Source of the DNA: a virus
Length of the DNA: 36,637 bases
IMG/VR virus record: IMGVR_UViG_3300037485_000923
Location: 1 to 36,637 of that record
Direction: 5' to 3' (one strand)
Position numbers and translations under genes: made by a program
Notes under the pieces: model-generated
Seen by the model: only the letters and a program-made list of their open reading frames with translations
What the model was told of the DNA's origin: nothing
The model's database searches: none
Shown here: one piece after another, positions 26,468 to 29,568 of the stretch
Position numbering within the stretch: position 1 is the first letter of the stretch
How the letters are laid out: every line of letters begins with the position of its first letter

Positions 26468-26567
26468 AATGATTGTTTGCATGATCCAAGAATTGAGATA
26501 ACCTGACGCCGCCTGAGCACGGAGTGAGACCCGCAGGCAACCATAGCAATGAAGTTTAACCAAACAT

Positions 26568-26641
26568 CCTCAAACTCTCCTCATCCGCCCGTCATTGCCG
26601 GGGTCTCAACGGGTGGCGAGAGTTTGGGGATTTTTGTTTTT
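26568..26641 (+). terminator. Long-stem intrinsic terminator with U-tract running to an ATG
   Basis: CCTCAAACTCTC (26568-26579) pairs with GAGAGTTTGGGG (26618-26629), 12 bp with one G-U. Inside, CCGCCCGT (26585-26592) pairs with ACGGGTGG (26609-26616), 8 bp. It is followed by ATTTTTGTTTTT. The last T is directly before the ATG of the HNH gene at 26642, so termination and translation start overlap. Confidence 0.8.
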
Positions 26642-27181
26642 ATGGAACGTAAACCAATTGGAAAAAGACTAAGATTTGAAATCTTTGCAAGAGACGGATT
26701 TACCTGCCGCTATTGTGGCCGGCAATCAGACACAGTGATTTTGCATATCGACCACATCCATCCTGTTTGCCAGGGCGGAACAAATGATCCAAGCAATCTC
26801 ATCACCTCGTGCGTTGATTGTAACCTTGGGAAAGCTGGCAAGAAAATAGACCAGCATGCCCCATCTGAATCATCGCGCTTGAGTATGGCTCAGGATTTAA
26901 GGGAGCAGGCACAGCTTGCGTCTTTAGCTGTTGATGCGGCGAAAGCCACAACACAAAAAAGAGCGATGATGATCGCCTTTTGGAATGAGCAAACCGGGCG
27001 CGAACTTTACGATAAAACTACAATTCAAACGATTTTCTCATACGTCCAAGAATACGGAGAATCTGTTGTTTACGGATGGATTGAAAAGGCGGCGTTTAAT
27101 TGCCCGACCGATACGCGGATGGGGAAATACATCAGCGGAATCCGTAGATCCACTAAAGCAGAAACCCAAGACGACGCATGA
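26642..27181 (+). CDS. HNH nuclease-domain protein
   Basis: This is a 179-residue protein. 'FARDGFTCRYCGRQSD' (15-30), 'LHIDHIHPVCQGGTNDPSNLITSCVDCNLGKAGK' (34-67) give an HNH domain: Cys22/25 and Cys57/60 for zinc, His38, Asn52 and 'CNLGKAG' closing it. The C-terminal 100 residues are helical, unlike a plain homing endonuclease. It may be a nicking nuclease or a replication factor; the replication genes follow. I start at 26642 rather than 26549, because the latter would place the terminator hairpin in the coding region. Confidence 0.7.
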   Translation: MERKPIGKRLRFEIFARDGFTCRYCGRQSDTVILHIDHIHPVCQGGTNDPSNLITSCVDCNLGKAGKKIDQHAPSESSRLSMAQDLREQAQLASLAVDAAKATTQKRAMMIAFWNEQTGRELYDKTTIQTIFSYVQEYGESVVYGWIEKAAFNCPTDTRMGKYISGIRRSTKAETQDDA

Positions 27182-28848: not shown

Positions 28849-29568
28849 ATGAAACAACAAAAACTAAATGAGCTACATCTTTTTGCAGGAGCTGGGGGAG
28901 GAATCCTCGGCGGAATCCTTTGCGGACATACCTGCGTCTGTGCTGTCGAGATTGAACCTTACCCACGAAAGGTATTGCTGCAACGGCAACGCGACGGAAT
29001 CCTGCCGAGATTCCCAATCTGGGACGACGTGCAAACATTTGACGGCAGACCATGGAGAGGCAAGGTTGACATCGTTTGCGGTGGATTCCCCTGCCAGGAC
29101 ATCAGCGCAGCCGGTAAAGGAGCGGGACTCAGCGGGGAGCGGTCTGGATTGTGGACCGAGATGGCCAGGATCGTTTGCGAGATTAGACCCCAATACGTCA
29201 TCGTGGAAAACTCACCAATTCTCACTTCTAGGGGGCTTGGAGTCGTTCTCGGAGACTTGGCCGAGATGGGGTATGATGCGCGATGGGGAGTGCTGGGATC
29301 TGATATCGTTGGAGCCGATCATCACCGCGCCAGAATCTGGATGGTTGCCGACTCCAACATGCGCGGACTCGAAAAATGCAGGGGGGAGGCAAAACCAATA
29401 CGACCTCAGCAAACACGCGAGGGTAATTACCGGCAAGCGTCTGAGCGTCCACTACTCGGAATGGACGATGGATTGGCCTCATGGGTGGACAGACATCACG
29501 CCATTGGGAACGGACAAGTTCCAAGCGTGGCTAGACTCGCATGGGAAACTTTAACACAACAAAAATGA
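28849..29568 (+). CDS. C5 cytosine DNA methyltransferase
   Basis: This 239-residue enzyme methylates cytosine C5, probably shielding phage DNA. Motif I is FAGAGGG (12-18), motif IV GGFPCQ with catalytic Cys82, motif VI 'VIVENS' (117-122), motif VIII 'HHRARIWMVA' (158-167), and motif X 'AIGNGQVP' (218-225). The target-recognition section between VIII and X is short (about 50 residues), so the enzyme is small for the family. Most of the gene is also open in the +1 frame (28868-29554). The end overlaps the DnaB ATG (ATGA). Confidence 0.85.
   Translation: MKQQKLNELHLFAGAGGGILGGILCGHTCVCAVEIEPYPRKVLLQRQRDGILPRFPIWDDVQTFDGRPWRGKVDIVCGGFPCQDISAAGKGAGLSGERSGLWTEMARIVCEIRPQYVIVENSPILTSRGLGVVLGDLAEMGYDARWGVLGSDIVGADHHRARIWMVADSNMRGLEKCRGEAKPIRPQQTREGNYRQASERPLLGMDDGLASWVDRHHAIGNGQVPSVARLAWETLTQQK
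28868..29554 (+). CDS. Overprinted second frame inside the C5 methyltransferase gene
   Basis: This is a 228-codon open frame, +1 relative to the methyltransferase, covering nearly all of it. The product contains 'SFAVDSPARTS', 'SFSETWPRWGMMRDGECW', 'SGWLPTPTCADSKN', and 'SVHYSEWTMDWPHGWTDITPLGTDKFQAWLDSHGK'. The order of a WPRxGMMRxGE box, an LPTPTxxD box and an EWxMxxPxGWTDxxPL box is known to me from phage proteins encoded next to such methyltransferases. That supports true dual coding. An alternative is that the motifs are side effects of the methyltransferase frame. Translation is unproven. Confidence 0.45.
   Translation: MSYIFLQELGEESSAESFADIPASVLSRLNLTHERYCCNGNATESCRDSQSGTTCKHLTADHGEARLTSFAVDSPARTSAQPVKERDSAGSGLDCGPRWPGSFARLDPNTSSWKTHQFSLLGGLESFSETWPRWGMMRDGECWDLISLEPIITAPESGWLPTPTCADSKNAGGRQNQYDLSKHARVITGKRLSVHYSEWTMDWPHGWTDITPLGTDKFQAWLDSHGKL

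Follow-up and report, generated by a model that had tools for sequence, protein, structure and literature searches.

A phage C5-cytosine methyltransferase gene with a second conserved protein in its +1 frame, probably a motif IX subunit of the same enzyme

Some C5-cytosine (m5C) DNA methyltransferases are made of two polypeptides, among them M.EaeI and the methyltransferase of the EcoHK31I system, which has YGGCCR specificity and a partner endonuclease. According to Lee, Kam and Shaw in 1995, the smaller EcoHK31I polypeptide (176 aa) is reportedly read in another frame within the coding sequence of the larger one (309 aa), and both polypeptides are said to be needed in vitro. The genes of a further two-polypeptide enzyme, M.AquI, are adjacent and not nested. 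In M.EcoHK31I motifs I-VIII and X belong to the larger subunit and motif IX to the smaller one, and M.AquI is likewise a single enzyme formed from two polypeptides, of which the smaller contains motif IX (PMC3404938).

Here we examined an m5C methyltransferase gene (alpha) that contains a long ORF (beta) in its +1 frame, located in a viral window (the whole 36.6-kb stretch of DNA analysed, IMG/VR record IMGVR_UViG_3300037485_000923). An earlier note made from the letters alone had reported a 228-codon +1 frame across nearly all of the methyltransferase, with conserved boxes of two proteins on top of each other. The window ORFs bear out this layout (Table 1): beta WPRWGMMRDGEC lies over alpha DLAEMGYDARWG, LPTPT lies over VADSN, and EWTMDWPHGWTDITPL adjoins AIGNGQVP. 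Along the DNA, the IX-like segment of beta is followed immediately by motif X of alpha, as in single-chain enzymes, and the beta WLPTPT box opens the variable region that separates alpha motif VIII from beta motif IX. Upstream of the methyltransferase gene lies a gene for an IstB/DnaC-like ATPase, and a gene for a DnaB-like helicase follows it. The helicase ORF has an ATG at 29541, within the 3' ends of alpha and beta, and its next ATG is at 29565; if the start at 29541 is used, all three forward frames would be coding over 29541-29554. An HNH endonuclease gene (26549-27181, PF01844 4e-12) is found ~2 kb upstream of the methyltransferase.

Table 1. Coordinates of alpha, beta and their conserved segments in the window.
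Feature	Position	Strand	Basis
Alpha, putative m5C DNA methyltransferase catalytic subunit, 239 aa	28849..29568	+	PF00145, phrog_363 5e-62
Beta, nested +1-frame protein, 228 aa, ATG start	28868..29554	+	phrog_1008 3e-22, stop depletion
TAA stop (beta frame) directly abutting the beta ATG	28865..28870	+	window sequence
Alpha motif I (FAGAGGG)	28882..28902	+	conserved in alpha alignment A4
Alpha motif IV with catalytic Cys (GGFPCQDIS)	29080..29106	+	P81, C82 invariant in A4
Alpha motif VI (VIVENS)	29197..29214	+	E120, N121 invariant in A4
Beta conserved box SETWPRWGMMRDGECW, over alpha DLAEMGYDARWG	29249..29296	+	P132, G135, G140 invariant in beta alignment A2
Alpha motif VIII (HHRARIWMVADS)	29320..29355	+	R162 invariant in A4
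Beta WLPTPT box	29339..29377	+	T162, P163 at least 90% conserved in A2
Beta motif IX-like segment (SVHYSEWTMDWPHGWTDI)	29444..29497	+	profile-profile match to canonical motif IX
Alpha motif X (AIGNGQVPSVA)	29500..29532	+	G220 invariant, N221 at least 90% conserved in A4

Likened to M.EcoHK31I by description and not by sequence, the window has motifs I-VIII and X in alpha and a motif IX-like segment in beta, and its small protein is encoded within the gene of the large one in a different frame, an arrangement reported for EcoHK31I as well. The locus differs from M.EcoHK31I in that beta covers ~95% of alpha, belongs to phrog_1008 and in relatives usually begins at a tandem ATGAATG; moreover, for M.EcoHK31I the target-recognition domain (TRD) is placed by prediction in the large subunit, but the window alpha leaves no space for such a domain. 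In M.AquI motifs IX and X belong to the small subunit together with half of the variable region, whereas motif X remains in alpha here. Compared with the single-chain enzymes M.HhaI, M.HaeIII and Dcm, alpha shares the fold of the catalytic lobe and the motifs (Z 21.9 to M.HhaI), but it is without TRD and motif IX, and the IX-like segment is in the other frame.

The alpha protein matches PF00145 at 5.5e-31, with residues 9-175 aligned to positions 4-168 of the 324-position profile. It contains motifs I-VIII and X, and the elements that mark PF00145 members were found (motif I, PCQ of IV, ENV/ENS of VI, RxR of VIII and GN of X), with the catalytic residues PC, EN, RxR and GN kept in alignment A4; R160 is at least 90% conserved there in addition to the residues given in Table 1. 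Motif IX and the target-recognition domain are absent from the alpha frame, and the motif IX columns of such alphas are empty or occupied by unrelated sequence. The AlphaFold2 model of alpha (pLDDT 81.6) aligned with M.HhaI (2zcj) over 195 residues at an rmsd of 2.4, and this alignment takes in the catalytic lobe and motif X. Residues ~173-219, the expected place of the target-recognition domain and motif IX, were modelled at a pLDDT of only ~40-50.

A protein search with the 228-residue frame, as the earlier note had suggested, found homologues: phrog_1008 was matched by the window beta (3e-22) and by 95 of 95 aligned betas, and homologues of the second frame are present in 86 phage records. 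In the catalogue phrog_1008 (329 positions) is named 'DNA methyltransferase', a name that is silent on its being the second frame of a methyltransferase gene. Beta itself had no match in Pfam, NCBIfam, PADLOC or PDB sequence searches, and betas of the phrog_1008 type go unrecognised by Pfam in general. The family consensus over 95 rows ends in LNPxWVEWLMGWPxGWTDL, which resembles motif IX of canonical enzymes (RRLTPRECARLMGFPDTF). When the beta profile was compared with the canonical m5C methyltransferase profile, the single best match was motif IX, with a score of 20.8 over 18 columns (E 0.053 on its own); 100 column-shuffled beta profiles scored at most 15.6. A strict motif IX matrix scan performed weakly on single sequences, whose divergence is too great for it: 11% of betas exceeded the 99% shuffle threshold. 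The window's own copy is diverged too (SVHYSEWTMDWP). The case for motif IX in beta, as expected of an EcoHK31I-like enzyme, can thus be called good, although not strong at the level of single sequences; it rests on the 18 columns, on a match to phrog_116 and on locus L247 (both described below). About half of beta overlies alpha motifs I-VI, and this half has no counterpart in single-chain enzymes. The AlphaFold2 model of beta was poor (pLDDT 56, pTM 0.25), good near the C-terminus only, and owing to its low confidence was kept out of the fold search.

Next, the openness of the +1 frame was compared with chance. Eighty viral relatives were retrieved with the methyltransferase protein alone, so that beta could not bias their choice, and in the null model each alpha protein was preserved while synonymous codons were redrawn. 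In practically all of the 80 loci the +1 frame was open over nearly the entire gene, and in all 80 it encoded a homologue of beta. For the window by itself, 5.1 +1 stops were expected and none of 300 synonymous recodings gave an open frame; the sole +1 stop counted is the TAA directly before the beta ATG. In 114 loci, 84 stops were observed in the +1 frame against 860 expected under synonymous recoding, and the +2 frame showed no depletion (1743 against 1633). In the window and the methyltransferase-fetched loci taken together, alpha codons 11-215, which overlap beta, contained 2 +1 stops against ~352 expected; beyond the overlap, codons 1-10 contained 71 (68 expected) and codons 216-239 contained 68 (74 expected). 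The borders of the depletion coincide with the start and the end of the beta ORF, with chance rates on both sides. Flanking ordinary ORFs had 0.044 +1 stops per codon, and 3.5% of them were open.

The earlier note had named two findings that would speak against a second gene, namely a second-frame protein with no homologues of its own and a second frame freely broken in relatives. Neither was observed. In-frame stops occurred in 7 of 200 betas (3 of which probably have a later start) and in 6 of 200 alphas (one at the terminal codon only). Many of these 200 loci were fetched with beta, and the fair comparison is the set of 80 fetched with the methyltransferase, in which 2 betas had stops (L030, near the beta end, and L053). 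In one relative (L101:3200-3290), six additional bases by the catalytic Cys codon lead to a stop in alpha and beta stays open; in L163, L166 and L168 beta is likewise open despite an in-frame alpha stop.

Codon-level constraint, a further check raised by the earlier note, was assessed by pairwise counting of substitution classes in an OLGenie-like manner. For the +1 frame, NN/NS was 0.55 (0.48-0.62) and SN/SS 0.37 (0.33-0.43); for the +2 frame the values were 1.15 and 0.91, respectively. As a control, homologous flanking genes read in +1 gave an NN/NS of 0.74 (0.64-0.85) and an SN/SS of 0.64 (0.58-0.74). The baseline ratio of ordinary genes is below 1, and only the difference from the control was therefore taken as evidence. 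The raw ratio signal is partly a bias of the method, and the remainder is specific to the methyltransferase gene. Because its ratios fall below those of the flanking-gene controls, the +1 frame is under constraint beyond that of ordinary genes. Similarity in alternative frames was also compared with a simple recoding null; the +1 frame was highest (z 5.9), yet other frames were also above the null, and this measure was not used as stand-alone evidence for that reason. We concluded that dual coding of two conserved proteins, as first proposed from the window alone, is strongly supported, and the same nested arrangement recurs in related phages and prophages by the hundred.

The start region varies among relatives. 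In the window, 19 nt separate the alpha start from the beta start, and neither of them has a clear Shine-Dalgarno sequence ahead of it. Tandem starts 4 nt apart (ATGAATG, or GTG/TTG-AATG) were found in 76 of 117 viral relatives, and the beta ATG was directly preceded by TGA or TAA in 89 of the 117. A Shine-Dalgarno core was present upstream of the first ATG in 35 of the 76 tandem cases, compared with 23 by shuffling, which lends modest support to a single ribosome site that may serve both starts in tandem loci. Among the more distant loci, beta has a later start (165-205 aa in L199 and L231), so its first ~50 residues are an extension.

To compare with canonical enzymes, 40 bacterial genomes plus E. 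coli K-12 Dcm were searched with PF00145, which yielded 62 methyltransferase ORFs. Thirty of the ORFs matched over the full length, nearly all of them with motif IX visible in frame, and in these the longest +1 opening reached at most ~48% of the gene; in the 32 without a full-length match it was at least ~68% and nearly always ended in an IX-like sequence, with the limit that most of the 32 come from genomes picked for beta, five loci (L217, L230, L231, L247 and L265) being independent of that choice. The L247 alpha (300 aa) covers PF00145 positions 1-167, and its nested +1 ORF (212 aa), which ends in VRRMLPSEYERLQGFPKNW, scores above the Pfam cut-off as PF00145 positions 174-297; by these profile positions, the nested ORF corresponds precisely to the methyltransferase segment that its alpha lacks. 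The L265 beta, of the phrog_1008 type, matches the methyltransferase profile phrog_116 at 441-471, downstream of the match of the window alpha (203-374), and phrog_16528 is common to the betas of L265 and L247. The beta profile led to 80 bacterial and archaeal loci, and at all 80 an alpha was present in the overlapping frame, so that beta was never seen alone; hosts of beta loci include Pseudomonas, Acinetobacter, Akkermansia and an archaeal MAG. A different arrangement was seen on the reverse strand of L249, where a methyltransferase with in-frame motif IX nevertheless has a 154-aa +1 ORF ending in PEKYFLSPNAATGMLRRADRMKRNLLPSFRRSL; this end recalls the recognition-domain sequence of other enzymes and perhaps reflects a different mode of gene splitting.

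Both frames are open, constrained and co-inherited, alpha is without motif IX, and beta has an IX-like segment in the correct place. We consider it likely that the locus encodes a two-subunit m5C DNA methyltransferase in two fully overlapping frames, an alpha-beta heterodimer that would protect phage DNA. The heterodimer function is the most likely reading of the motif complementarity, the L247 bridge and the profile comparison. Alpha would be the catalytic and AdoMet-binding lobe with motifs I-VIII and X, and beta, probably translated from its own ATG inside alpha, is proposed to be the motif IX and target-recognition subunit that supplies the missing parts of the small lobe. Target recognition is tentatively assigned to beta because alpha has no domain for it and because a variable stretch lies between PTPT and motif IX of beta. 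In the DNA the parts are collinear with a normal enzyme (motifs I-VIII in frame 0, the variable or target region and motif IX in +1, motif X in frame 0). This order suggests that the gene was once single-chain, that its small lobe slipped into another frame and that the lobe was retained as a separate protein. Alpha and beta would then form a single methyltransferase acting on phage DNA, probably as a defence against host restriction, since phage methyltransferases usually serve to protect phage DNA. The earlier note had offered an anti-restriction or methylation-related partner; the latter role is sharpened here to a likely motif IX subunit, and a separate anti-restriction protein is not indicated, as PADLOC gave no match for beta.

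The openness and apparent conservation of +1 could in principle be a passive shadow of a conserved methyltransferase protein and its codon use. Constraint does leak into overlapping frames, as seen in the +1 NN/NS of ordinary genes and in the other frames of the methyltransferase gene that exceed the recoding null, but the many stops predicted by protein-preserving recoding are missing, with abrupt borders where beta starts and ends, stop counts in the +2 frame match chance, the substitution ratios lie under those of control genes, and canonical m5C methyltransferases do not show such openness. A chance or shadow ORF was ruled out by the stop depletion, the canonical-enzyme comparison and the substitution controls, and the probability left to it is negligible.

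Two further explanations accept that the second frame is read. If ribosomes were programmed to shift frame from alpha, a single chain with motifs I-VIII plus the beta motif IX would result and there would be no separate protein. The collinearity of the motifs in DNA fits with this, as does a natural ORF at L121:2550-3510, in which the alpha frame (I-VI) runs into beta sequence as a frameshift fusion without motifs VIII and X. However, +1 is free of stops far upstream, in alpha codons 11-115 (1 against 134 expected), where a late shift needs no open frame; the beta start is marked by a conserved ATG with a stop just ahead; and motif X could be reached only by a second shift. We regard frameshifting as very improbable. 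Somewhat less remote, though still unlikely, is a beta that is translated and conserved for another role, as a regulator, an inhibitor or a counter-restriction protein that merely overlaps the methyltransferase. The poor model, the lack of a Pfam match and the half opposite alpha motifs I-VI would suit such a protein, and so would the four loci in which beta stays open with alpha stopped. It would leave unexplained, however, why the nested ORF occurs exactly in methyltransferases without motif IX, why the beta C-terminus is IX-like at the collinear place, and the L247 bridge, and the absence of a PADLOC match speaks against it as well.

More broadly, it is somewhat more likely than not that these loci form a large group of phage and prophage m5C methyltransferases that has been overlooked and may be called 'frame-split', one frame encoding the catalytic lobe with motif X and the +1 frame the recognition lobe with motif IX; beta would be near full-length, with a start a few bases inside alpha, and its N-terminal half would be a novel domain that is overprinted on the catalytic motifs. 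In the literature, which was covered in part, we found no description of nested betas in phage methyltransferases, and an earlier description is possible. Records give either frame, as 'methyltransferase' or as 'hypothetical': in Vibrio phage 1.091.O (L122) alpha is annotated as a C-5 methylase, and in the related 1.236.O (L239) beta is annotated as a hypothetical protein. To our knowledge, long same-strand overlaps of two conserved proteins have rarely been demonstrated in prokaryotic genes; here the overlap is nearly full-length, extends to hundreds of phage and prophage genes and shows near-total stop depletion with sharp borders. A large group of methyltransferases would need corrected annotation, the finding would account for the apparent absence of a recognition domain in these enzymes, and cloning or recoding of a single frame may yield a dead enzyme. 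The group would also provide a methyltransferase that is split by nature, along with extensive data on the evolution of two proteins within one DNA.
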